Positions 1 to 45,195 of a stretch of DNA of 48,772 nt are shown here, piece by piece. Origin of the DNA: a virus; the IMG/VR virus record IMGVR_UViG_3300048834_001324, positions 1 through 48,772 of that record. The stretch is one strand, 5' to 3'. The notes beneath the pieces are model-generated. The model did no database searches and was not told the DNA's origin. It worked only from the letters and a program-made list of their open reading frames with translations. Positions within the stretch are counted from its first letter, which is position 1, and the number at the start of each line of letters is the position of its first letter. The position numbers were made by a program, and so were the translations under genes.

Positions 1-888
1 ATGAGCAAACAGCTGACCCCAGAGCAAAGATACCACATCGAATGCTGCCACCGGCGCGGTGTTGCGCAGTGCGAGATCGCTAAAGACATCGGCGTTCACA
101 AATCTACGGTCTGCCGTGAATTGAAACGCAATCGCGGTCAACGTGGTTATCGTCATCAGCAAGCCCAACGCAAGGCCGAGGAGCGACGCCTCAATAAACA
201 GCGCCCGCAGATCAGCCCTGAGACCTGGGATGCCATTGAATCGCGTCTCCGCAAGAAGCACAGTCCCGAAGCGATCAGTGGTCGCATGAAGAAGGAAGGC
301 TTGCCGACGGCGAGTCCCGAATGGATTTATCAGCATATCTATGCGGACAAGCGCAAGGGCGGCGATCTGCACTTGTCGTTGGTCAGCCAAAAGCCCCGTC
401 GCAAGCGGGCGGGAAGCTACGACAGGCGCGGCCAGATCGAGAACAAGACCAGTATTGACCAGCGTCCGGCGCTGGTGGATGAGTTGACGCGGATTGGCGA
501 TGGCGAGATCGATTTGGTCATCGGCCAGGGCCACCGTTGTCCGATCCTGACCTTCACCGAAAGGAAGAGTGGTGTCTTTTTGGCGCGCTTGCTCTCCCGC
601 AAATCAGCCCCAGAGGTGGCGGCGGCCGTGATCGAGATGTTGCGCCCTTACCAAGAGCACCTCTTCACTTTGACCTCCGACAACGGAAAGGAATTCGCCC
701 ACCATCAAGACATCGCGGCGGCGTTGGGATGTGACTATTACTTCGCCCATCCCTACAGCAGCTGGGAGCGCGGACGCAACGAGAATGCCAACGGAAGATT
801 GCGGCGCTACTTTCCCAAGCGGATGTCCTTCGTCCATCTCACGCAAAGGGGAAACACACGCACGCGCGAGCACGGGTTAAGCCAATGA
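1..888 (+). pseudogene. IS30-family transposase, C-terminally truncated
   Basis: The 295-residue product has the IS30 layout. An N-terminal helix-turn-helix (about residues 5-45, with EIAKDIGVHKSTVCREL) is followed by a DDE catalytic domain. Visible catalytic residues are D171 (in EIDLVIG), D227 (in TSDNGKEF) and E261 (in NENANG). The normal tryptophan of the GDWE motif is glycine (GDGEID). After FPK at about residue 273 the protein leaves the family: the usual C-terminus with an NxRPRKxLGYxTP-type motif, about 45-50 residues, is missing and replaced by an unrelated Arg/Thr-rich tail. It is therefore probably inactive. It lies outside the phage late operon and most likely marks flanking host DNA or old IS debris at the left edge. 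The window starts on its ATG, so upstream context is unseen. Confidence 0.85.
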
Positions 889-1782: not shown

Positions 1783-3436
1783 TGTTCGTGAGAGCGGCGA
1801 GTTGCGATTGAACTTCCACAAGTATCAGTGGCAGGCGATGTTTTCTTGTGCGCGGCATACGTATTTATTGAAGGGTTGGCGTGCTGGGTTTTCGAGTTTT
1901 GCGCCGTTTTGGTTAAAGCAGGAGATGACGCGGTGTGGGCCTGGCAATCCGGCGTTGCGTTATGCGGTGATTGCGCCTACGTTGTCGGGCATGAAAGAGG
2001 GCTTGTTGCCGGAGATGGTTCGTGTTTTTGTGGACTATTTGAAGTTGGCTACGCACAACAAGAACAAGAACGAGATGACGATCACGCCGGCGGGTGATGT
2101 GAAGTTGTGGGGTCATCGCCAGAAGGAACGGACGGTTATTTCTTTTTGTTATGCGGAGAATCCAGAGTCTTTTGCTTCGATGACGGCTTTGGGGTTTGTG
2201 GCGGACGAGATCGGCCAGACGGGCTTTAAGCTGGAGTCGTTTCGTACGATGTTGGCGCGTATGGGCACAACATCGGGGCAAGTGGCACCTGGCAATATTT
2301 CGCCTGACCTGATGGCGATGGGCTTTCCGAAGAATTTGCCGTCAGGAAGGCTGTTGGCGGGCTCGACGGTTTACCAGTTGGGCTGGCTGGAGGATATTTA
2401 CAACGAGTGGCGCGCGACTTATGCGGAGCGTATGCGCGAGTGGCGCGCGGTGTATCAGGAAGCCGAGAGCGACGAGGAGCGCCTCGTATTGCGAGAGCGC
2501 TATCGCGCATTAGCGTTTCGCGGCATGGTTCATCGCAAGACGCATTTCATTAGGTTTGACTCGACGGCGAATCCGACTTACAACAAAGAGGATTACGAAG
2601 CTGATCGAAAGTCTTTGCCAAAATGGTTCTTCGACATGAAGTTCCGTGCGATTTTTCGCAAGCCTGCCGGTGCGATTTTTGAAGGATGGGAACCTTCGCG
2701 TCATGTTGTGGCACCGTTCGAGATTCCCGAGAGCTGGCCAAGAGAGGTTGCCATTGATTTTGGCAAGCGTAATTTTTATGCGACGTTCTGGGCATGGGAT
2801 AAAGAGCGCGACCGGCATTTCCTGTATCAGAGCTATCACGATTCGCAGAAGAGCAACGAGGAGCGCGCCGAGGAGATATTGCGGCTGGAGCCTGATATTT
2901 CATGGTGCGTTGCCGGACAGGTCGCAGAGAGCGACGCGCGCGTCGAGCTGGCACTGGGCGGCATACCGGCCATACCTCCGTTGTATCGGCCAGTGTGGGA
3001 AGGCATTCATGCATTGGGCGCAATGATAAGCCAAGACAAGATATTCGTGTTCCGTGGCGCTTGCCCTGGAATTGAGGACGAGTTCAAAAGCTACGCGAGA
3101 CCAGTTGACGATCAAGGCCAAGTCAAATTGGACGCAGACCCCGTGAACAAAGAAACCTACCACTGGATAGATTCGGCAAGATATCGCGCCACATGGCGAG
3201 GCCGCAGACTTGCGCACGGCGTGGTCAGCGCACCACGCAAAAGCCGGAAAGTCGAGGCTGAAGAGCGCGCCGTTGCCAAAGCAACCGGCAGACCGCGCGA
3301 CGTGCCAATACTGAACGAAGCACAGCAAATATCACATATCGCCGCCACGAGACCGATGACACCGGCAGGCGCGATACGATTCGAGCGCTACGGACTCAGA
3401 GACGAAGGCTGCTATGAACCACACCTCGATATTTAG
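1760..3436 (+). CDS. Terminase large subunit (packaging ATPase-nuclease)
   Basis: The 558-residue product drives DNA into the prohead and cuts the concatemer. The N-terminal ATPase has a deviant Walker A around residues 38-47 (KGWRAGFSSF), where the lysine sits at the front of the loop as in lambda gpA (KSARVGYSK). The Walker B is LGFVADE at about residues 142-148. The C-terminal RNase-H-like nuclease begins with EVAIDFG at about residue 329, giving the first metal-binding Asp, and HWIDSARYRATW further on may hold another. Two ATGs (1760 and 1763) follow a GGAAGGGG ribosome binding site inside the small-terminase gene. Base composition changes along the gene: the first half is G+T rich, the last third C+A rich. 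Confidence 0.85.
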   Translation: MMANRLFDVRESGELRLNFHKYQWQAMFSCARHTYLLKGWRAGFSSFAPFWLKQEMTRCGPGNPALRYAVIAPTLSGMKEGLLPEMVRVFVDYLKLATHNKNKNEMTITPAGDVKLWGHRQKERTVISFCYAENPESFASMTALGFVADEIGQTGFKLESFRTMLARMGTTSGQVAPGNISPDLMAMGFPKNLPSGRLLAGSTVYQLGWLEDIYNEWRATYAERMREWRAVYQEAESDEERLVLRERYRALAFRGMVHRKTHFIRFDSTANPTYNKEDYEADRKSLPKWFFDMKFRAIFRKPAGAIFEGWEPSRHVVAPFEIPESWPREVAIDFGKRNFYATFWAWDKERDRHFLYQSYHDSQKSNEERAEEILRLEPDISWCVAGQVAESDARVELALGGIPAIPPLYRPVWEGIHALGAMISQDKIFVFRGACPGIEDEFKSYARPVDDQGQVKLDADPVNKETYHWIDSARYRATWRGRRLAHGVVSAPRKSRKVEAEERAVAKATGRPRDVPILNEAQQISHIAATRPMTPAGAIRFERYGLRDEGCYEPHLDI

Positions 3437-3450
3437 GCGTGGACAGGAGT

Positions 3451-3515
3451 GCTCAAATCCAACATAATGTTGAATTTGGAGGGCGTCCAAAACGGAATTT
3501 AATTCCGATTTGAGC
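3451..3515. other. Cloverleaf-like intergenic structure
   Basis: A closing stem GCTCAAATC (3451-3459) / GATTTGAGC (3507-3515) surrounds three consecutive small hairpins: CAACAT-a-ATGTTG (3460-3472), TTGGA-gggcg-TCCAA (3476-3490) and GGAATT-t-AATTCC (3494-3506). The outer stem continues imperfectly on both sides (AGGA/TCCT). The whole lies between the terminase stop and the portal promoter. There is no U-tract, so it is not a plain terminator. It may be a structured RNA or a palindromic repeat element. Confidence 0.55.
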
Positions 3516-26978: not shown

Positions 26979-28724
26979 ATGGCGACATTGAACGAAAAAT
27001 TACCGGTTCCGGGGCAAGGCGCAGGCAACAATTTGGTTGTGGGGAATGCGCTCCAGTATCTCGACCAAATGGCGAATGCGACGCAAGATTTCTCACTTGC
27101 GTCAGGGGACGCCACCGTCAACGATACCGAAACCACCAGCAACACCGCGCACTATGGAAAGTGGCGCACGACTGGCACGCTAACAGCCAATCGTGAGCTT
27201 ATCGCGCCGTCTCGTAAGTGGCGAAGATGGATCGAAAACGCTTGCAGTGGAGCCTATACCGTCAAGGTCGTTTTAGTAGCAGCAGGCGCAGGCGTGGAGG
27301 TCTCCGCTGGAACGACGGTGCTACTGGAATGCGACGGGACGGCAATCACGCAAATCGCCGTAGGTTCTACCACCAACCCGCTTGCGTTGGCCGACATAAC
27401 CGAGCCGTCACCTTCGACCAACAAACTCTACAGCGTGGCTACCGGCGTCTTAAAATGGGCGGGGAAGCGCATCGCTTTAATCGCCAGCACGCTGAGCAAT
27501 TCGCAAGTCGTGGAGACTGACAGTAGTGGGTACTTGGTGAGCGCGGCAAAAGGCACGGCCTACAACAAAGCATTCGGCACGGGGAGCGGTGATGTGTGCG
27601 AAGGCAATGATTCCCGATTGAGCGATTCTCGAACGCCTTCTGCTCACGCCAGTAGTCACGAAAACGGCGGCGCTGACGAAATCGCGCTCGACGCTTCTCA
27701 GGTCACGACCGGTGTTTTTAACATCGCACGATTGGCGACGGGCACGCCGGACGGCACGAAATTCATACGCGATGACGGATCACTTGTCACGCCATCGGGC
27801 GGCAGCGGAACGCTTGACGGATTATCCGATGTCGTCATCACTTCGCCCACTACGGGGCAGGTCGTGAAATACAACGGCACCAATTGGGTTAATGACGCCG
27901 ACGCAACCGGCGGCGGCTCAGGTGTAACGTCAGTGTCAGGAACTGCGCCTATCGTCAGTAGCGGCGGCACGACACCAGCAATCAGCATCAGCGCGGCAAC
28001 GACCAGCGACGCGGGGTCTATGAGCGCATCTGATAAGACTAAGCTCGACGGTGCCACTGACGCGGCTACGGCCTCTAAGCTAATGATCCGTGATGCCTCT
28101 GGCCGCGTTAAAGTCGCCGACGGCAGCGCGTCCGGCGATTGTGTCAACAAGGGGCAACTTGACCTTAAAGCGCCTTTGGCATCGCCTACTTTCACCGGAA
28201 CTGTTACTGTGCCAACGCCCAGTAATAGCACCGATGCGGCGACAAAGGGTTACGTGGACGGCATCGGCATTGGCGGGTATGACTACATCCAACTGCGCGA
28301 CGAAAAAAGCAGCGGCACTAATGGCGGCACTTTCACCTCGGGCAGTTGGCAAACCCGCACGCTCAACACCGAAACGCAAGACACCGGCAACGACTGTTCG
28401 CTTTCGTCCAACCAGTTCACGCTCGGCGCTGGGACGTATGAAGTTGAGGCATGGGCAGGTGGCAACAAAGTGAGTGCGCATCAGTTGCGCATCCAAAACA
28501 TCACCGATGGCACTACGGTCATCGTCGGTCAAACGATTTTGGCATCGGACGCCAACGGCGTATTCAATACCGCATCGCTAAGAGGCCGCTTTACTATCGC
28601 TTCAAGCAAGGCATTTGAGTTGCAACACCGCTGCGGAACAACTCGAAGCACGAACGGCTTCGGTAGTGCGAGTAGTTGGGGCACTGAGGTTTATGCTGAG
28701 GTCGTGCTAAGAAAGGTGGCCTAA
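26979..28724 (+). CDS. Tail fibre / receptor-binding protein
   Basis: The 581-residue protein has a fibre layout. The N-terminal part probably attaches to the tail tip. The middle has fibre repeats (TGQVVKYNGTNWVND, GVTSVSGTAPIVSSGGTTPA, ASPTFTGTVTVPTP, STDAATKGYVDG). The C-terminal 140 residues (SWQTRTLNTETQDTGNDCSL, GTYEVEAWAGGNKV, FELQHRCGT, VYAEVVLRKV) resemble a C1q/TNF-like jelly-roll tip. It is the last rightward gene and its end overlaps the convergent nuclease gene by 18 bp. Specificity cannot be predicted. Confidence 0.75.
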   Translation: MATLNEKLPVPGQGAGNNLVVGNALQYLDQMANATQDFSLASGDATVNDTETTSNTAHYGKWRTTGTLTANRELIAPSRKWRRWIENACSGAYTVKVVLVAAGAGVEVSAGTTVLLECDGTAITQIAVGSTTNPLALADITEPSPSTNKLYSVATGVLKWAGKRIALIASTLSNSQVVETDSSGYLVSAAKGTAYNKAFGTGSGDVCEGNDSRLSDSRTPSAHASSHENGGADEIALDASQVTTGVFNIARLATGTPDGTKFIRDDGSLVTPSGGSGTLDGLSDVVITSPTTGQVVKYNGTNWVNDADATGGGSGVTSVSGTAPIVSSGGTTPAISISAATTSDAGSMSASDKTKLDGATDAATASKLMIRDASGRVKVADGSASGDCVNKGQLDLKAPLASPTFTGTVTVPTPSNSTDAATKGYVDGIGIGGYDYIQLRDEKSSGTNGGTFTSGSWQTRTLNTETQDTGNDCSLSSNQFTLGAGTYEVEAWAGGNKVSAHQLRIQNITDGTTVIVGQTILASDANGVFNTASLRGRFTIASSKAFELQHRCGTTRSTNGFGSASSWGTEVYAEVVLRKVA

Positions 28725-29042
28725 TGTGATAGGCACCATCATCGCCTCTCTCACCGTCGCGTGCGCCCGTCCATCGCGCACCATGTCCGTAGTGAAACGC
28801 AAGACACGCCAGCCCAGCAGTGCCGCCGTGTTGTATTTGATGCAGTCGCTCTCATAGTGCTTGCCACGACTATGAGCACCCTTGACCCAAGTGCCGCCCT
28901 CGACCTCGACCGCAAGCATCCGATCCGGCCACGCAAAATCAAAGCGCCACTTTCGTGTTTCGTGGAAGCGATATTCACGCTCGGGCAACGGCAAGCGCTG
29001 CTGCCTGAGTTGCAATAATAGTAAATCCTCAAGCGCGCTCAC
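28707..29042 (-). CDS. DUF559-like endonuclease
   Basis: The 111-residue protein has the small PD-(D/E)XK-type pattern RKWRFDFAWPDRMLAVEVEG, with catalytic candidates Asp in FDF and Glu in VEVEGG. It continues ESDCIKYNTAALLGWRVLRF and MVRDG. Such stand-alone nucleases are common in phages. It could act in DNA processing or as a free-standing homing nuclease. It starts inside the end of the upstream coiled-coil gene and is the last gene of the leftward unit. Confidence 0.7.
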   Translation of the reverse strand: MSALEDLLLLQLRQQRLPLPEREYRFHETRKWRFDFAWPDRMLAVEVEGGTWVKGAHSRGKHYESDCIKYNTAALLGWRVLRFTTDMVRDGRAHATVREAMMVPITLGHLS

Positions 29043-32337: not shown

Positions 32338-33438
32338 CTAAACCTGCATCGGCATAATCACATACTGAAAATCATCGTTGCCGACCGCGCGCAATAAGCC
32401 CGGATTCAACGCGCCTCTCAACTCGATGCTGATATTCTCCGCACTCAAAATGCCCAGCACTTCCACCAAATAGCGCACATTGAACGCGATTTTAATATCC
32501 TCGCCGTTCATCGCTATCGGCACTTCTTCGAACGCTTTGCCCGAACTCGCGCTTTCGGCAGTGATCTCCAGCACCTCGCCTTTGGTCTCAAAAACCGCTT
32601 TCTCTGCCGCGTCTTTGGCGATGATGTAAACGCGTCGCACCGCTTCTAACAACGCCACGCGATTGAAGGTGATCTTGCGCTCCAAGTCTTGAGGGATCAC
32701 TTTTTCGTAGTTGGGATATTGGCCATCCAGTAAACGCGAAATCAGGGTGACACCATTCGCCTGAAAACGCACTTGTGACGCGCCAAAGCGCACCGCGATT
32801 GTGCCGCCATCTGACGGCTTCAACATCCGCTCCATGTCCGCTAAAGGCTTTGCCGGTATCACCGTAGTCACCGGATTTTCCAGCGCTGCCGCTAATTTGG
32901 CTTTCTTCAACGCCAAGCGGTGTGTATCAGTTGCGACCAGCGTTAGCGTGTCGCCGCGCACTTCAAAGAGTACTCCCATGAGCAGCGAGCGCGTCTCTTC
33001 GTTACTGGTGGCGAAGGTCGTCATGCGCAACATCTCTTTGAGCGTGGCTTGCGGAATCACAAGCTCGGTTCCGTCGTTGACCACTGGCACATTCGGATAA
33101 TCTTCGGCAGGCAGGCTCAGCACGGTGGTGTTGCTCTTGCCGCAACGGATTCTCACCTTGCCGTCTTGCGCCTCAAGGACGACCGGCGCATCCGGCAGTT
33201 TGGATACCACGTCAAGCGTGATTGCCGCCGGAACCGCGACTGCGCCGCTCTCGGCAATGCTGGCCGCTGCTTTGCAGTGAACCGTCGTGTCTAAATCCGT
33301 TGCCGTGAAGCGCAGCGCGTCGCCTTCGGCTTCGATGAGGATGTTTGACAGGATCGGGAGTGTGTTGCTCTTGCCCACCACGCGCGCCGTTGTTGCCAAC
33401 GCGTTTTGCAGTGCCGTTTTCTCGATTGTAATTTTCAT
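32338..33438 (-). CDS. dnaN: DNA polymerase III beta sliding clamp
   Basis: The 366-residue protein is a full-length bacterial-type beta clamp, the ring that tethers the replicative polymerase to DNA. It shows the clamp N-terminus MKITIEKTALQNALATTARV, then LPILSNILIEAEGDALRFTATDLD, a middle domain with EETRSLLMGVLFEVRGDTLTLVATDTHRLA, and the C-terminal MPMQV typical of clamps (hydrophobic end near the client pocket). It starts after GAGGAGGAGAAC. A phage-encoded clamp implies recruitment of a polymerase of host or unseen phage origin. Host dnaN normally lies beside dnaA, which is absent, so this is a phage copy. Confidence 0.92.
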   Translation of the reverse strand: MKITIEKTALQNALATTARVVGKSNTLPILSNILIEAEGDALRFTATDLDTTVHCKAAASIAESGAVAVPAAITLDVVSKLPDAPVVLEAQDGKVRIRCGKSNTTVLSLPAEDYPNVPVVNDGTELVIPQATLKEMLRMTTFATSNEETRSLLMGVLFEVRGDTLTLVATDTHRLALKKAKLAAALENPVTTVIPAKPLADMERMLKPSDGGTIAVRFGASQVRFQANGVTLISRLLDGQYPNYEKVIPQDLERKITFNRVALLEAVRRVYIIAKDAAEKAVFETKGEVLEITAESASSGKAFEEVPIAMNGEDIKIAFNVRYLVEVLGILSAENISIELRGALNPGLLRAVGNDDFQYVIMPMQV

Positions 33439-34324: not shown

Positions 34325-34451
34325 CCTCAACCTCCTTGTATTTTGCCTGTAGCGCGCTTCTTTTGGCTTTTGCGCCCAAACCCTTAGCCGCCGGATTCTC
34401 GCGGCTTGTAGGTGGCATTGCGCGCAAATCAGGCGGTATTACCAACGGCAT
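34197..34451 (-). CDS. Small overlapping hypothetical protein
   Basis: The 84-residue frame starts at an ATG overlapping the helicase stop (TGATG), so it is likely coupled. The first 50 residues (MPLVIPPDLRAMPPTSRENP, AKAKRSALQAKYKEVEDVDK) look genuine. The last part, rich in Gly/Ala/Arg, overlaps the next gene by 128 bp and may be just frame-open sequence. No family was recognised. Confidence 0.4.
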   Translation of the reverse strand: MPLVIPPDLRAMPPTSRENPAAKGLGAKAKRSALQAKYKEVEDVDKSRAEDNEPSQDIRAGRRVGLRAGAGGGTSGFAVGLGDG

Positions 34452-37400
34452 CACCAGCGCTTATTCGCGCTGATGTAGTCGCTGGCTTGTTGAAACGTCA
34501 TATTTCTCGCTGCTTCGGGTGTGACGCCCAGTTTGCGGCACATCAAATCTCGTTGAGCGTAAGAGGCTTTCCCGGCTTCACGGTCTTTCATCAGTTGCCC
34601 GATAATCCCCATCGCCGCCTTCTTGGTTAGGCCGTCTGTCTTGACTTTGCCCTTTGTCATTTTCTCGATGAGTGTGGCCTGCGCATCCGTGCACGGCTCG
34701 CCGGTGATGCTCATCGCCATCGGCGTAGTGTTCAGTAGCTGTGCGCAAAGCGGATCGTATTCGGTCACTTCGTACCGGAACCGCTCTTCGCGGTTTTTGC
34801 GCCGTCGCGCTTCCTGCTGCGCGGCCTTACGTGCTTCGATCTCTAACCGCACGCGCTCCTTCTCGCGCTCCTCTTCGACCGCGAGGCGCGCCTTTTCCAG
34901 TACTGTGGTTAAGTCGGCGTCAGGGTCGTTGTCTAAAATATCTTGCGCTGCGCCAAACAGCGCCTCGGCGTCCTCTTCGGTTTCGTCAGCGAGTTTTTCG
35001 GCCAGTAAGTCCGCGCCGCCAACCAACGGCAAACCCGATGTGATGTAGGAAAAACTCAGTATCAAGCAATCGGTTTTTCCAGTCTCGGGCGAGGGGCGTG
35101 TGCCGCGCCCGACGCATTGACGGTATAGGTTTATGCTTTGCGTTGGGCGCGCCATGACCACGCATTCGATCGGTGGGCAGTCGAAGCCCTCAGTGCATTT
35201 CATGCAGTTCACAAGAACCTGAAATTCGCCGTTTTCGAGGGCGTTGTATATTTTTTCCGGCTCTTTGGTTTCACCAGATACGGTCATCGCCTTAATGCCC
35301 ATGTCGTTAAGCGCCGCGCTCAGTGCGGTCGCCGATGCCACCAGTGGCGTAAAAACGATAGTGCGCCGCGCGCCGATGTTTTCCTTGATCGCGGTCGCCA
35401 AACGGTTGGTGTTTTGGTAGATAACGGCGTCTAATTCGCTTGCCACGAAATCACCATCACTGCCAAACACGCGCCCCACCATGCGCAGGTCAATGTTGGT
35501 TTTGACCTGCTTGAACTTCAACGGGCAGAGCGCGCCCATCTCGATTGCTTGTATCAATGTCAACGGCTCCAATGTCTCATGCCAACCGGCAAGATACATA
35601 TATTTTGGCTTGGAGCCTTTTTTCTTGACCGTGACACCAGGTGTTGCCGTGACGCCTAAACGCTGTGCGGTATTGAACCAGCGCAGCACTTTCGCCCAAT
35701 GGTTGCCTTTGCCCTCGAAATTGATGTGATGGCAATTATGAACTAACCATCCATCGGCAAAATAGTTGTGGTTTCCTTCGACTTCGATGTTGTAGACAAA
35801 ACCGTCTGGACACACCCGCTCAAATTCCGATTGACTTCCGAGTTCCAGAACCTCAACACTTTCCACCCGCGCGAAGTCAAAAACGCTGTTTTGCGTGCGT
35901 CCTGCTCTTTCCCTAACAGCGTCTTGTGCGATGCGCCGTCCACTTCCACTGCGATTTTTAAAGACAGGTTGGCAACGTCTATTTTGTAGCAAGTCGGTAA
36001 GCCGGAAGTGTCGCCTTTTCGGATGCCAGTTTTTACAACCACTTCCATTGGCCACCCCAACGCCTCGGCCAATTTCTGTTGTGCTTGGGTTGTTTGTCCG
36101 TTGCCGCCGCGTACTTTCGGTTTCCACGCAATCGCCTTCATTGCCGCGCGTTGCTTGTGATAGTACTCCGGCTTCTGCATTGGATTGTTTTTCGTCATGC
36201 GCTCCGAAGCATGAGTGCGATTTGTGCGTGCCATCGTTTCGGACTTGATGCGCGTCATACGAATAACTTTGCACGTTTCCGAGCAATAAGCTACTCCCCG
36301 CCGCGCATTTTGCCTTTGGCTTGGGGATAAGATCGGAACCGTAGTGCCACAAGTACTGCAAGGCATTTCCGATGGCGTTGTGCGCTTTGCACTGATTTGT
36401 TTTGGCGCAGGTCGTATCTTTTTGCGTGCATCCCTTCTGACTGCCTTGCAAGCCTCCGAGCAAATAGGTGTTTGCCCAACCGTCCAACTTCGCGGCCTGT
36501 AAGAACTCCCGCACACGACGCAAGATTTTAGAGGCACCAGTTCCTTTTTGCGGAACGGTTTTCGTTTGCGGCACTTGTCGCAGATCATCAGCCCGAACTT
36601 CCACGCCTTCTGATATTCCGCTTGGCAGTTGGTGCAAACAAAGGTTTTGAGAGGGTGTTTCATGCATCATATTGTAACACAAAATATCATTGGGCGAAAT
36701 ATACTCAATGTGTCCATTTTGCATTACAGCGAACGGATGCTCCGGTGTGCAAACAATGCTTTTCCCGTTATTGAATCTCACGCGAACAAGTTGCTTTGCA
36801 GGGTTTTTGTACAGGCGTGCAACGCGGCGCTTCTCAACCTTTTTGGTGCTGTGATTGTAGGATTTTACGAAGTCGCCAACCTTGATAGTTTCTATCGGTT
36901 TGCCATCCACAGGTGTGCCTGCGGGAAAACATTCATCAGAAATAATCAGGTCAAACGAATCGCGCGGCCAGAGCTGAACGCGGTCGCGGTGGAGCGATTG
37001 CACCGATGCCACCACGATCGGTTTGGTCTCGCTAAAATGCGGCAAGGCACGCAAATCGCCCTGCTCGATGAGCGGCACCACGCCGACTTTTTGCATTTTC
37101 TCATCGGCTTGCCGTAGTAAGTCTTTACGATGCACCAGCACTAAAACCCGCTTGCCCATCTGTGCGAAGATTTTCGCAATGGCGTTAAACGTGATCGTCT
37201 TGCCCGTGCCAGTGGGCAGCACTAACCGGCAAGAGCGCACGCCGTCATGCACGAAAAGATTGAGAATGTCCGAAATGGCTTGCGATTGGTAATCATGGAA
37301 CGTTATCACGTCGTCAATAATCATCTCGGGATGGTAGCGCGCTACAGCCTCTTCGCCAACGGGCAAATCGAAAATATCCGGCTCGTCATCAATCGGCGGC

Positions 37401-37486
37401 ACTAAGCGCAGCTCGGGATAAGCGCCGTCCGGCAAGGCATGGGGCAGGGGGTATTGAGGCGCGACACGCGCGGCATTGCTCACCAT
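34451..37486 (-). CDS. SF2 DNA helicase (DECH box) interrupted by an intein
   Basis: The 1011-residue precursor should splice to a 612-residue helicase. Extein motifs: Walker A LPTGTGKT (about residues 89-96), motif Ia VLVLVHRKDLL, DECH box SDE|CHH split by the intein after Glu185, motif III TATPG, and motif VI QCVGRGTRP. The C-terminal part has a charged coiled-coil stretch and a small helical domain (TDAQATLIEKMTKGKVKTDG). It resembles phage RecG/Ssl2-like helicases used in replication or recombination. The start overlaps the ParB-like stop (ATGGTGA). Intein removal is needed to restore motif II, so splicing could control activity. Confidence 0.85.
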   Translation of the reverse strand: MVSNAARVAPQYPLPHALPDGAYPELRLVPPIDDEPDIFDLPVGEEAVARYHPEMIIDDVITFHDYQSQAISDILNLFVHDGVRSCRLVLPTGTGKTITFNAIAKIFAQMGKRVLVLVHRKDLLRQADEKMQKVGVVPLIEQGDLRALPHFSETKPIVVASVQSLHRDRVQLWPRDSFDLIISDECFPAGTPVDGKPIETIKVGDFVKSYNHSTKKVEKRRVARLYKNPAKQLVRVRFNNGKSIVCTPEHPFAVMQNGHIEYISPNDILCYNMMHETPSQNLCLHQLPSGISEGVEVRADDLRQVPQTKTVPQKGTGASKILRRVREFLQAAKLDGWANTYLLGGLQGSQKGCTQKDTTCAKTNQCKAHNAIGNALQYLWHYGSDLIPKPKAKCAAGSSLLLGNVQSYSYDAHQVRNDGTHKSHSCFGAHDEKQSNAEAGVLSQATRGNEGDCVETESTRRQRTNNPSTTEIGRGVGVANGSGCKNWHPKRRHFRLTDLLQNRRCQPVFKNRSGSGRRIAQDAVRERAGRTQNSVFDFARVESVEVLELGSQSEFERVCPDGFVYNIEVEGNHNYFADGWLVHNCHHINFEGKGNHWAKVLRWFNTAQRLGVTATPGVTVKKKGSKPKYMYLAGWHETLEPLTLIQAIEMGALCPLKFKQVKTNIDLRMVGRVFGSDGDFVASELDAVIYQNTNRLATAIKENIGARRTIVFTPLVASATALSAALNDMGIKAMTVSGETKEPEKIYNALENGEFQVLVNCMKCTEGFDCPPIECVVMARPTQSINLYRQCVGRGTRPSPETGKTDCLILSFSYITSGLPLVGGADLLAEKLADETEEDAEALFGAAQDILDNDPDADLTTVLEKARLAVEEEREKERVRLEIEARKAAQQEARRRKNREERFRYEVTEYDPLCAQLLNTTPMAMSITGEPCTDAQATLIEKMTKGKVKTDGLTKKAAMGIIGQLMKDREAGKASYAQRDLMCRKLGVTPEAARNMTFQQASDYISANKRW
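35735..36931 (-). mobile_element. Intein in the helicase DECH box (399 residues)
   Basis: The intein starts at Cys186 (CFPAGTPVDGKPIETIKVGD, block A), has block B VCTPEHPF, and ends with block F/G FVYNIEVEGNHNYF then WLVHN, followed by the +1 extein Cys. The splicing His-Asn pair and both nucleophile cysteines are present, so it should be active. It sits exactly inside the Walker B/DECH motif, a favoured intein site. In the intein frame, the roughly 260 residues between N- and C-terminal splicing blocks have no endonuclease motif; a separate nuclease gene is encoded in another frame. Confidence 0.9.
35743..36663 (-). CDS. Vsr-like homing endonuclease nested out of frame in the intein
   Basis: The 306-residue frame is shifted +1 relative to the intein and lies wholly inside it. 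Zinc-binding pairs appear in order: C10xxC13, C28xxC31, C48xxC51 with C68xxxC72, C102xxC105 with C127xxxC131. Then a NPMQKPEYYHK motif and a Vsr/EDxHD-like core follow: KID (D229), AVEVDGASH (E240, D242, H246) and GWKVLRFWNSEV. Intein-associated Vsr-like nucleases are known; they normally sit in frame or in split inteins. The stop TAG overlaps the intein WLVHN codons. The start ATG has a TGA just upstream and only a weak ribosome binding site, so expression may depend on coupling or frameshifting. Confidence 0.75.
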   Translation of the reverse strand: MKHPLKTFVCTNCQAEYQKAWKFGLMICDKCRKRKPFRKKELVPLKSCVVCGSSYRPRSWTVGQTPICSEACKAVRRDARKKIRPAPKQISAKRTTPSEMPCSTCGTTVPILSPSQRQNARRGVAYCSETCKVIRMTRIKSETMARTNRTHASERMTKNNPMQKPEYYHKQRAAMKAIAWKPKVRGGNGQTTQAQQKLAEALGWPMEVVVKTGIRKGDTSGLPTCYKIDVANLSLKIAVEVDGASHKTLLGKEQDARKTAFLTSRGWKVLRFWNSEVNRNLSGCVQTVLSTTSKSKETTTILPMDG

Positions 37487-41086: not shown

Positions 41087-41950
41087 TCAATCGCTACAAA
41101 CCTCTTCAACTTTCCCCTTGATACAATGATAGGGACGATTTGCTTGAATACCACCCTCGCCGACATAGGCTGTTTCGCAGCGCCAGCGCATTACCTTACT
41201 GTCCCACCATTTAAAGATCAATGTGCCCCTATCACCTGCCGTGGCTGTGCCGTAATCGCCTGTCGTGGCTGTGCCGTAAGCGCCCGCCGTGGCTGTGCCG
41301 CAATCGCCTGCCGTGGCTGTGCCGTAAACGCCCGCTGTGGCTGTGCCGTAATCGCCCGCTGTGGCTGTGCCGCAATCGCCCGCCGTGGCTGTGCCGTAAT
41401 CGCCTGTCGTGGCTGTGCCACCATAGCCTGTCGTGGCTGTGCCACCATCACCTGCTGTGGCTGTGCCCCTATCACCTGCTGTGGCTGTGCCCCTATCACC
41501 TGCCGTGGCTGTGCCGTAATCGCCTGTCGTGGCTGTGCCACCATAGCCTGTCGTGGCTGTGCCGCAATCGCCTGCCGTGGCTGTGCCGTAAACGCCCGCT
41601 GTGGCTGTGCCGTAAGCGCCCGCCGTGGCTGTGCCACCATTACCTGCCGTGGCTGTGCCCCTATCACCTGTCGTGGCTGTGCCGTAATCGCCTGTCGTGG
41701 CTGTGCCACCATAGCCTGTCGTGGCTGTGCCGTAAGCGCCCGCCGTGGCTGTGCCCCTATTACCTGCCGTGGCTGTGCCCCAATCACCTGCTGTGGCTGT
41801 GCCGTAATCGCCCGCTGTGGCTGTGCCGCAATCGCCTGTCGTGGCTGTGCCGTAATCGCCCGCCGTTTTTAGGGCGAGGATGCGCTCACCACTCACCCGC
41901 CATTTTTTCCCTTGGTTAGCTGTGACAGTCGTTTTTGTTGATTTGCTCAT
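41087..41950 (-). CDS. Octapeptide-repeat protein (GTATAGD repeats)
   Basis: The 287-residue protein starts at ATG 41950 after AAAGGAAAGC. An N-terminal MSKSTKTTVTANQGKKWRVSG leads into about 27 eight-residue repeats of the type YGTATAGD, where positions 1 and 8 vary (Y/R/G/W and D/N/Y/A/V). It ends with a folded cap, GTLIFKWWDSK, TAYVGEGGI and NRPYHC. Similar repeat-plus-WWD cap proteins occur in phages; the regular 8-residue pitch suggests a solenoid or beta-helix. Function is unknown. Confidence 0.7.
   Translation of the reverse strand: MSKSTKTTVTANQGKKWRVSGERILALKTAGDYGTATTGDCGTATAGDYGTATAGDWGTATAGNRGTATAGAYGTATTGYGGTATTGDYGTATTGDRGTATAGNGGTATAGAYGTATAGVYGTATAGDCGTATTGYGGTATTGDYGTATAGDRGTATAGDRGTATAGDGGTATTGYGGTATTGDYGTATAGDCGTATAGDYGTATAGVYGTATAGDCGTATAGAYGTATTGDYGTATAGDRGTLIFKWWDSKVMRWRCETAYVGEGGIQANRPYHCIKGKVEEVCSD
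41218..41870 (-). repeat. 24-bp tandem repeat array
   Basis: About 27 tandem units of 24 bp (plus-strand core GCCGTGGCTGTGCC followed by a variable decamer) encode the octapeptide repeats. Because the unit is a multiple of three, copy-number change never breaks the frame. The repeats also leave other frames open, which creates spurious long ORFs on both strands. Confidence 0.9.
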
Positions 41951-41966
41951 GCTTTCCTTTTTTGTT

Positions 41967-42008
41967 GGGGCGCGGCCATCCCGCAGAGATGCACTCGCGC
42001 CGCGACCC
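41967..42008 (-). promoter_or_regulatory. Leader hairpin H2
   Basis: GGGGCGCGGC (41967-41976) pairs with GCCGCGACCC (41999-42008), one mismatch. On the transcript it lies just before AACAAAAAAGGAAAGC and the start of the repeat protein. It is closely related to H3 at 42440-42491. Confidence 0.6.
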
Positions 42009-42017
42009 AATTAGCTG

Positions 42018-43448: not shown

Positions 43449-43650
43449 TTGTGCATTGCAGTGCAGTGGTATTCGTGACACTCTACACGCGATAAATCGC
43501 GGTAGCTTCTTGGGCTACGGGTAGCGTTACGACACTTCCGTTAGCGCCCAACGGCTGTGTCCCAGCCGATGTTTTTAGGATGTTGATTGCCGCGTTTTGG
43601 TCTCTATGGAGCGAAAGGCCACACGCGCAATCAACCCAACGAGTAGAAAG
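43449..43650 (-). ncRNA. Putative omega/reRNA of TnpB
   Basis: TnpB nucleases use an RNA derived from the 3' end of their own gene plus the sequence just past the element's right end. Here the RNA would include the end of tnpB and the hairpin CGCGAT-TT-ATCGCG (about 43487-43500) and finish in a guide read from 43469 downward, CCACTGCACTGCAATG. Boundaries are inferred from family knowledge only. Confidence 0.4.
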
Positions 43651-44643
43651 CGAGAAGCCTTCAAAAAGACTTCCGCAAGCCGAGCAGGTTTTAGATGTAT
43701 AAGCGGGGTTCACAAACTCTATCACGCGACCAGCTTCTACCGCTTTGTGCGCGAGACGTTGAGAGAGATAGCCCCAACCGGCGTCTAAAATGCTTTTTGA
43801 CAAATGATGGTTTCGCACCATATTTTTGATGCGAAGGTCTTCTAAAACAATGTGATCGTAATTTTGAACCAGACCATGAGCGACTTTATTCAAAAAGTCC
43901 TTACGGGTATTCTCGATGCGTTGATGCTGCGTTTGCAATCGCTTAACTGCTTTGCGTCGGTTCATGCCGCCCTTTTTGCGCCGCGCGACTTTGCGCTGCA
44001 AAACGCGCAACTTCTTTTGCTCGCTCCGATACCATTTCGGATTTTCGATATGAGAACCATCCGAGAGCGTAAGCAAACTTTCAATGCCAACGTCCACACC
44101 AATACTTTGGCCGGTTGCAGGCAATGGCTGCGCTGCGACTTCGCACGAAAAACACGCATACCAACCATCAGCTTTCTTGATGATGCGAAGAGATTTAACC
44201 ACACCTTCAAGCGGTCTGTGCCAACGCACCGGCACACGGCCAATGCCCGAAAGTTTCAAGCGCCGCCCGTCTATCTTAAAGCCGTTGCCGTACTCTTTGA
44301 AGCCAAAAGAATCGAAGCGATGAAAGCCTTTGAAGCGCGGATAACCGGCTTTCTCTTTAGCTTTCACGCGGCGAAAGAACGCTTGAAAGGCTTTATCCAA
44401 ATCAGAGACCACAACCTGCAAAACATGGCTGTGGATATTGGCCGCGTAAAGATTGTTTTTCTTTTCGTCTTTAACTTTGCGCAACTGCTCAAACTTGCCG
44501 ATGGTTTCGCCGCGCTCCTCGTAAGCTGTTTTGCGCTCTGCCAGACACGAGTTGTAAAAGCGGCGGCACGTCTCGCGCGTCGCTTCCATGCGAAGGGCTT
44601 GCCCTTCACTGGGATACAACCGATAGCAAAATGCTTTGAACAT
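43483..44643 (-). CDS. tnpB: TnpB RNA-guided nuclease (IS605 OrfB)
   Basis: The 386-residue protein has the full TnpB architecture: N-terminal helical domain (MFKAFCYRLYPSEGQALRME), OrfB region with PRFKGFHRFDSFGF, and RuvC catalytic residues D184 (GVDVGIE), E268 (VLEDL) and D348 (HRDQNAA). The zinc finger CSACG ... CACG lies between the last two. Family members cut DNA next to a short motif using an RNA from the element's right end and favour element persistence. All key residues are intact. It begins right after tnpA. Confidence 0.9.
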   Translation of the reverse strand: MFKAFCYRLYPSEGQALRMEATRETCRRFYNSCLAERKTAYEERGETIGKFEQLRKVKDEKKNNLYAANIHSHVLQVVVSDLDKAFQAFFRRVKAKEKAGYPRFKGFHRFDSFGFKEYGNGFKIDGRRLKLSGIGRVPVRWHRPLEGVVKSLRIIKKADGWYACFSCEVAAQPLPATGQSIGVDVGIESLLTLSDGSHIENPKWYRSEQKKLRVLQRKVARRKKGGMNRRKAVKRLQTQHQRIENTRKDFLNKVAHGLVQNYDHIVLEDLRIKNMVRNHHLSKSILDAGWGYLSQRLAHKAVEAGRVIEFVNPAYTSKTCSACGSLFEGFSLSTRWVDCACGLSLHRDQNAAINILKTSAGTQPLGANGSVVTLPVAQEATAIYRV

Positions 44644-45039
44644 TTACTTGCCTTTTTGCTCTTCGATGTAACGCTGAATCGTTTCTTGCGAGACGTTGCC
44701 TGCCGTCGAAGCGAAATAACTTCTACTCCACATCGAAGGCAGTTTTTTGAGATGCGGAAACTTCAAACGCAATTCATGGGACGTAAGACCTTTAACTTCC
44801 TTTACAACTTCCGCCGCCGATGTTTTGGGAAACACTCTGACGAAAAGATGTACATGGTCGGGCATGACAGCCAAGCGCAAAATCTCCCAGCCCTGCTCAT
44901 TGCACTTCTGATAAATCAACCGCTCGCACTCTTTACCAACCGCTCCGACCAAAACCGGCTTGCGCCGTTTCGGGCAAAAGATGAGGTGATAAACAATGAG
45001 ATGAACCCTATGTTCGTCGCGCTGATATTGCATTGCCAT
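44644..45039 (-). CDS. tnpA: TnpA Y1 transposase (IS200/IS605)
   Basis: The 131-residue HUH transposase acts on single-stranded DNA to excise and insert the element. It has the His-hydrophobic-His motif PDHVHLFV and a C-terminal helix with the nucleophile Tyr in TIQRYIEEQ. I chose ATG 45039; a longer frame upstream would run through the left-end structure. An inverted repeat ATTGTTGA/TCAACAAT (45040-45047 and 45062-45069) lies just before the start and may hide it in mRNA. A promoter-like TTGCTT-N17-CATACT precedes it. Confidence 0.88.
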   Translation of the reverse strand: MAMQYQRDEHRVHLIVYHLIFCPKRRKPVLVGAVGKECERLIYQKCNEQGWEILRLAVMPDHVHLFVRVFPKTSAAEVVKEVKGLTSHELRLKFPHLKKLPSMWSRSYFASTAGNVSQETIQRYIEEQKGK

Positions 45040-45195
45040 ATTGTTGACAGTATGGCACAAATCAACAATAAAAGCAAGGCTTATTTTTATGCAAATTCTT
45101 ACGTTCAACGTCTTCGACGGGCTAAAGCCGTCGGTGATAAACCGCGCCTAACCCCTGCCATTAAAATGGCGGGGCTTGCGGCGGGTTGCTATTCG

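Follow-up and report, generated by a model that had tools for sequence, protein, structure and literature searches.

A candidate homing endonuclease gene nested out of frame in the intein of a phage helicase gene, with its core overlapping the splicing block

Introduction

Canonical large inteins carry a LAGLIDADG or HNH nuclease in the host frame, as a domain of the spliced intein. The locus described here shares with them the HINT domain, the insertion into a conserved motif and the homing logic. However, its nuclease is a separate ORF in the +1 frame, and the host-frame middle of the intein is predicted to be disordered. A second arrangement, the fractured gene, was reportedly described by Dassa et al. 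in 2009 (NAR) and combines split inteins with a free-standing EDxHD/Vsr-like nuclease. There, too, a Vsr-like nuclease is tied to an intein yet made as a protein of its own, but the host gene is split; in the present locus the host gene is unbroken, and the nuclease ORF lies out of frame across the splicing domain. A 2025 preprint by Gosselin is said to deal with non-canonical intein architecture in actinobacteriophages and to be cited for overlapping frames. Going by its title and citation, it may report related architectures; Gordonia phage Clown, which recurs below, is the kind of phage surveyed. As far as title and citation tell, the preprint may overlap in part with the arrangement described here.

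An HNH nuclease lying out of frame in a phage methylase gene is known as the ShiLan domain or Pacc40 insertion; the host frame is open and the distribution is disjunct (Arsenault, Gosselin and Gogarten 2025; PMC11855218). A splicing domain was undetectable in that insertion, which is predicted not to splice (PMC11855218). The present locus resembles it in the out-of-frame nuclease within a phage gene and in the open host frame, but contains a full HINT domain, the C-terminal block of which is dual-coded. I-Bth0305I, which is annotated as a mobile-intron protein, joins a multidomain DNA-binding region to a catalytic domain (PMC3943268). This protein and the EDxHD homing endonucleases are like the nuclease studied here in catalytic fold, family profile and the layout of DNA-binding region plus catalytic domain. 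In contrast to the mobile-intron protein, the present family has zinc pairs and lies out of frame in inteins. Here we describe what is very probably a mobile intein whose homing endonuclease is not one of its domains but the product of a gene of its own, written in the +1 frame.

Results and discussion

The helicase gene contains a complete intein

The DNA analysed (the window) comprises all 48,772 nucleotides of the IMG/VR virus record IMGVR_UViG_3300048834_001324. An ORF of 1011 aa on its minus strand (34451-37486) matches the Pfam domains ResIII (2e-25) and Helicase_C (3.7e-10) and was divided as follows.

34451..37486 (-), helicase precursor ORF (SF2/ResIII), interrupted by the intein; from ORF and Pfam
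36932..37486 (-), N-extein, terminating in ...IISDE, the first half of motif II; from the translation
35735..36931 (-), intein of 399 aa, from Cys1 to the terminal HN; from motifs, Pfam and NCBIfam
36656..36931 (-), N-terminal HINT splicing half, intein residues 1-92, blocks A and B; AlphaFold2 pLDDT ~97, TIGR01445
35897..36655 (-), intein-frame linker, residues 93-345, open, disordered and little conserved; AlphaFold2, mean pairwise identity 0.19
35735..35896 (-), C-terminal HINT splicing half, intein residues 346-399, blocks F and G; NCBIfam, AlphaFold2, identity
34454..35734 (-), C-extein, starting with the +1 Cys (CHHINF...); from the translation

The intein is inserted in frame into motif II of the SF2 helicase (DE / CHH), and uninterrupted homologues exist. 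Its splicing motifs comprise Cys1, T62 and H65 of block B, block F, HN399 and the +1 Cys. In an alignment of 54 intein sequences C1, T62, H65 and N399 are invariant. Pfam Intein_splicing matches the 399-aa intein (E = 3.8e-13), as do the NCBIfam models intein_Nterm (TIGR01445, 5.8e-08) and intein_Cterm (5e-07). AlphaFold2 modelled residues 1-90 and 352-399 at a pLDDT of ~97 and the middle at ~40-60, mostly below 50. The best Foldseek matches of this model were inteins, hedgehog/BIL and other HINT domains. By every feature of sequence and predicted fold that was tested, the insert is an intein.

A fractured gene was considered as an alternative, in which a free-standing nuclease sits between the halves of a split intein; it is for this arrangement that a Vsr-like/EDxHD nuclease is reported (Dassa et al. 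2009, cited in PMC3229294). However, the helicase reading frame is unbroken through the whole insert, as a single open frame (34451-37486). This continuity refutes a fractured gene at this locus, and we allow it only a minute probability compared with a contiguous gene bearing an intact intein.

A nuclease ORF is nested in the +1 frame

A second ORF lies wholly within the intein, with an overlap of 921 bp. Its TAG stop falls within the L-V codons of the intein motif WLVHN. The initial annotation had both frames, the +1 shift and the 921-bp overlap exactly right, and the features of the inner ORF are listed here.

35743..36663 (-), nested nuclease ORF, 306 codons plus stop, +1 relative to the intein; from ORF and Pfam
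36571..36636 (-), first CxxC pair, C10, C13 ... C28, C31; in a low-confidence region, may precede the real start
36535..36537 (-), alternative GTG start (V43) with AAGGA upstream; duplex -5.6 kcal/mol
36448..36522 (-), second zinc pair set, C48, C51 ... C68, C72; from sequence and AlphaFold2
36271..36360 (-), third zinc pair set, C102, C105 ... C127, C131; invariant or nearly so among relatives
35899..35979 (-), putative nuclease catalytic region, D229 ... E240, D242, H246 ... D255; from conservation and fold matches

Profile searches of the two frames, which the initial annotation had suggested, recovered the intein (Pfam, NCBIfam) and a DUF559/Vsr-like nuclease (Pfam) separately. It had also read zinc pairs and a Vsr-like core in the 306-codon frame: the zinc pairs are present, and the 306-aa product matches Pfam DUF559 with E = 2.9e-14, the match to Vsr being weak. 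An alignment profile of the nuclease matched PDB entries 3hrl (3.9e-13) and 3r3p, which is I-Bth0305I (0.0022). For AlphaFold2, an alignment of 61 window and locus sequences was used, with phage-database rows left out. The model has a mean pLDDT of 86, with 92-98 in the catalytic domain and ~52-63 in residues 1-40; the catalytic domain of I-Bth0305I (3r3p) and the DUF559 protein 3hrl were the leading Foldseek matches. In relatives ~30-50% identical to the nuclease of the window, D229, D242, H246 and D255 are invariant and E240 nearly so. In the HMM alignment 3r3p carries N at the position of the family's D242 and is without H246; the likeness to I-Bth0305I is one of profile and fold. Judged from profiles and the predicted fold, the nuclease is a member of the EDxHD/DUF559 (Vsr-like, PD-(D/E)XK) fold group. 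The two frames would encode two separately folding proteins, so far as prediction reaches.

The frame relation is conserved and stop codons are avoided

The nuclease served as the query to collect relatives from phage records and from contigs of viruses and genomes, and the intein halves near these nucleases were located with intein N and C profiles built here. Nuclease and intein C block co-occurred at 143 places, each time in the same relative frame (143/143). Both intein halves were found in one ORF in 136 of the 143, which correspond to 109 distinct loci once identical copies are removed. A further set was selected by the intein. A single-protein intein search returned no relatives and the whole-intein alignment was too divergent as a query; the alignment of the C block alone served instead. 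Of the 80 members of this set, 63 carry the DUF559/EDxHD nuclease, all in the same shifted frame. The initial annotation had named relatives with the nuclease in the intein frame as evidence of a frameshift error; we looked for them and found none (0/143 nuclease-selected and 0/63 intein-selected relatives). The arrangement is also present in isolated phages, namely phi673, CP-T1, MR14 and Vibrio phages. In all 11 nested phage records inspected (8 helicases, 3 terminases) the inner ORF is unannotated, and the helicase isolates annotate the outer CDS alone.

The expected number of stop codons was estimated by shuffling synonymous codons, so that neither the nuclease protein nor its codon usage changed. 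In the 109 distinct loci no intein-frame stop was observed vs 905 expected, whereas the third frame, as a control, contained 1833 stops vs 1713 expected. Shuffles of the window gave 11.9 intein-frame stops on average, and none of 40,000 was stop-free. This agrees with the rough ~4e-7 of the initial annotation for one frame staying open by chance, and chance openness of two frames was ruled out. In free-standing homologues of the nested nuclease families the alternate frames are closed (L124, L030, L311-L313 and others).

Two ORFs in different frames would also result if the nuclease were an in-frame domain of an ordinary intein and the sequence contained a frameshift from sequencing or assembly. 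Such an error is refuted by the relatives, all of which share the frame relation (143/143, isolated phages included), and by the 109 distinct loci where both intein halves lie in one uninterrupted ORF; its probability is practically nil. Given the uniform frame, the avoidance of stops and the closed frames of the free-standing homologues, frameshift error and coincidence are both excluded. The out-of-frame arrangement is conserved in more than 100 phage and bacterial loci.

Dual coding of the nuclease core and the splicing block

The bases of the linker (35897..36655, minus strand) chiefly code for the nuclease. Towards its end the nuclease runs into the C-terminal splicing half, where two further features were defined.

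35743..35896 (-), shared segment, nuclease C-terminal core plus C-terminal splicing half; from nuclease third-position divergence
35842..35868 (-), dual-coded motif, nuclease GWKVLRFWN, equal to intein-frame VESVEVLE (35843-35866); from translations and conservation

The third positions of the nuclease are the first positions of the intein frame. Their divergence was 0.345 in the zinc and core regions vs 0.147 over the C-terminal splicing half (Fisher p=5e-19); among the 14 independent pairs compared, the splicing-block overlap was the less divergent region in 12 (Wilcoxon p=0.0009). Mean pairwise identity in the intein frame was 0.38 in the N splicing half, 0.19 in the linker and 0.48 in the C splicing half; that of the nuclease was 0.34-0.49 along its length. 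VESVEVLE is a conserved strand of the intein. Judged from these comparisons, both frames are constrained over the final 154 bases, which the nuclease shares with the C-terminal splicing block. Identity and codon-position divergence indicate that the remaining, larger part of the overlap serves the nuclease and has only to be stop-free in the host frame, and that the last 154 bases encode two proteins. The initial annotation had assigned the nuclease C-terminal core and blocks F/G to the same bases, and the drop in third-position divergence bears this out. Its proposal to look for selection in each frame had a divided outcome: both frames are constrained at the splicing-block overlap, but elsewhere in the overlap the intein frame is mostly just stop-free, giving a disordered and poorly conserved linker. 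Two proteins with tied inheritance, as it had pictured them, hold as a fact of the sequence or as a well-supported reading of it.

The inner ORF could instead be a relic, an unexpressed former nuclease kept open solely by constraint on the intein frame. Homing genes usually decay, and L034, L036 and L147 are mini-inteins that have lost the nuclease and retain the overlapping tail. However, across the linker it is the nuclease frame that is conserved (core 0.44 vs intein linker 0.19), with free third positions, and the invariance or near-invariance of the putative catalytic residues at ~30-50% identity also speaks against decay. We judge a relic to be quite improbable and keep to a nested nuclease gene.

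Mobility and origin of the element

In nearly all relatives the insertion follows DE (or DEAH) of SF2 helicase motif II and ends in HN or SN before a +1 Cys/Ser. Nucleases that are 61-63% identical occur in helicases with flanks only 32-40% identical (L081 vs L088, L096 and L117; L041 vs L069), and phage helicases with an uninterrupted motif II were found. At the level of sequence this shows transfer of the element between divergent helicases, which is consistent with site-specific cleavage and homing. In a Spirochaetaceae contig (L124) a free-standing nuclease, 54% identical to that of the window, lies immediately upstream of an intein-free helicase gene. It has a normal ATG start, and its alternate frame is closed by 19 stops. 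The element likely originated by capture of a free-standing nuclease gene that already acted beside the same target gene. Some genes apparently hold a pair of inteins: L022, L023 and L025 contain an extra upstream C-terminal splicing motif, and L305 (724-4269) has an in-frame LAGLIDADG match as well.

Other nuclease families are nested in inteins

The intein-selected set also holds ordinary in-frame LAGLIDADG and HNH inteins (L275, L276, L281, L283) and mini-inteins. Zinc HNH nucleases were found in L254, L269 and L285, where their frame relation to the intein is that of the nuclease of the window, and HNH_3 nucleases in L273 and L279 in the other alternate frame; the intein frames are open in both groups. 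A search with the L279 nuclease returned relatives out of frame in inteins, many of them in terminases.

L273, L279, L290-L308, L315, L316, L319, L322 and L323, HNH_3 nested loci; both alternate sense frames are used across the HNH and HNH_3 loci

The nested relatives of the L279 nuclease amount to 17 distinct loci with 0 intein-frame stops vs 49.5 expected, L316 being in the opposite frame. Isolates of this type are Acinetobacter phage Highwayman, Tetrasphaera phage TJE1 and Gordonia phage Clown. Free-standing members of the HNH_3 family adjoin terminase genes (BP10, EauM-23), paralleling L124 beside a helicase. In L270 and L326-L332, an ORF with DUF559 and zinc pairs (285-342 aa) lies antisense and wholly within an intein that interrupts a Mu F-like head protein. 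This antisense case comprises two variants, which are 89% identical.

L270, 2427-3590 (+), intein-side ORF
L270, 2661-3518 (-), antisense nuclease ORF

Stops in the antisense register depend on codon usage alone, so synonymous shuffling is uninformative there, and the case rests on domain matches on both strands. L277 was not counted as a further nested nuclease, as its intein frame has 25 stops. At 2701-3498 it carries a PD-(D/E)XK-like ORF (weak Phage_endo_I match) over the intein C block, possibly a split or fractured intein.

It looks as if homing genes have become nested out of frame in inteins more than once, with several unrelated nuclease families involved. It is probable that inteins have repeatedly been colonised by homing genes in a frame of their own. 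The +1, +2 and antisense registers of contiguous inteins are occupied in four or more associations, namely those of EDxHD/DUF559 with SF2 helicases, of zinc HNH, of HNH_3 with terminases and of antisense DUF559 with the Mu F-like head protein, and the core of the main family is dual-coded onto the splicing block. Nesting would then be a general and overlooked third mode of intein mobility, beside in-frame domains and split inteins.

Proposed mechanism and expression of the nuclease

From the ORFs, homology, predicted folds, frame relation, stop avoidance, dual constraint and transfer, we infer splicing, internal translation, cleavage and homing as follows. Translation of the helicase mRNA in the host frame would yield N-extein, HINT-N, the disordered linker, HINT-C and C-extein. 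The HINT halves would associate, splice out the insert and restore helicase motif II (DE joined to CHH). An internal start in the +1 frame of the same mRNA would give a free zinc-ribbon and EDxHD nuclease. Helicase genes that lack the intein would be cleaved by this nuclease at the motif II site, and the element would be copied into them. Since the nuclease and the C-terminal splicing block share bases, a deletion that removed the entire nuclease would take splicing and the host helicase with it.

Internal initiation is the least supported step of this mechanism. ATG 36663, the first start of the nested ORF, is without an SD sequence. On folding grounds GTG 36537 (V43) is more likely the nuclease start, because residues 1-40 are modelled at low pLDDT and AAGGA lies upstream. 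A start codon precedes the zinc core in 108 of 109 loci, the exception being L051, and strong SD sequences lie ahead of the inner start in L017, L018, L025, L031, L057, L073, L084 and L139. Overall, candidate nuclease starts had a mean SD strength of -4.96 kcal/mol vs -4.54 kcal/mol at same-frame internal starts, and 15 of 500 resamples were as strong. This enrichment is slight and was rejected as proof of internal initiation.

The nuclease might instead be made by a +1 programmed ribosomal frameshift, as a HINT-N/nuclease fusion. The nuclease frame is indeed +1 of the intein frame and opens in or just past HINT-N at many loci, and the overall SD support for internal starts is weak. Against this stand the start codon before the zinc core at all but one of the 109 loci, several with strong SDs, and the normal ATG of the free-standing homologue L124. 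Moreover, unrelated nucleases lie in the other frame or antisense, and one type of frameshift cannot serve these. We consider frameshifting unlikely and favour internal initiation.

Implications and other features of the window

The coupling of inteins and nucleases has to be rethought, as the nuclease need not be a domain and may be encoded by a gene that overlies the splicing domain. Nested nucleases would explain why the inteins of these phage helicases and terminases have long, disordered linkers, and a hidden set of nucleases missed by annotation is now exposed. Nuclease GWKVLRFWN over intein VESVEVLE offers a natural dual-coding system. How free-standing nuclease genes evolved into nested ones, and perhaps into fractured ones, can now be put to the test.

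Several other features of the window were noted. A small free-standing nuclease-like ORF (28717-29036, minus strand) matches DUF559 below the threshold (E 1.7e-4) and contains the motif WRVLRF. Near the helicase gene, a protein resembling a DNA polymerase sliding clamp is encoded at 32338-33438 (minus strand; by eye). The gene at 41087-42010 consists of short-unit repeats (TATAGDYG...), which leave several frames open on both strands. A TnpB-like ORF at 43483-45108 (minus strand) stands beside a small Y1-transposase-like ORF and by eye resembles an IS200/IS605-type pair. At the start of the record, positions 1-888 (plus strand) hold an ORF that, by eye, is IS30-like transposase.
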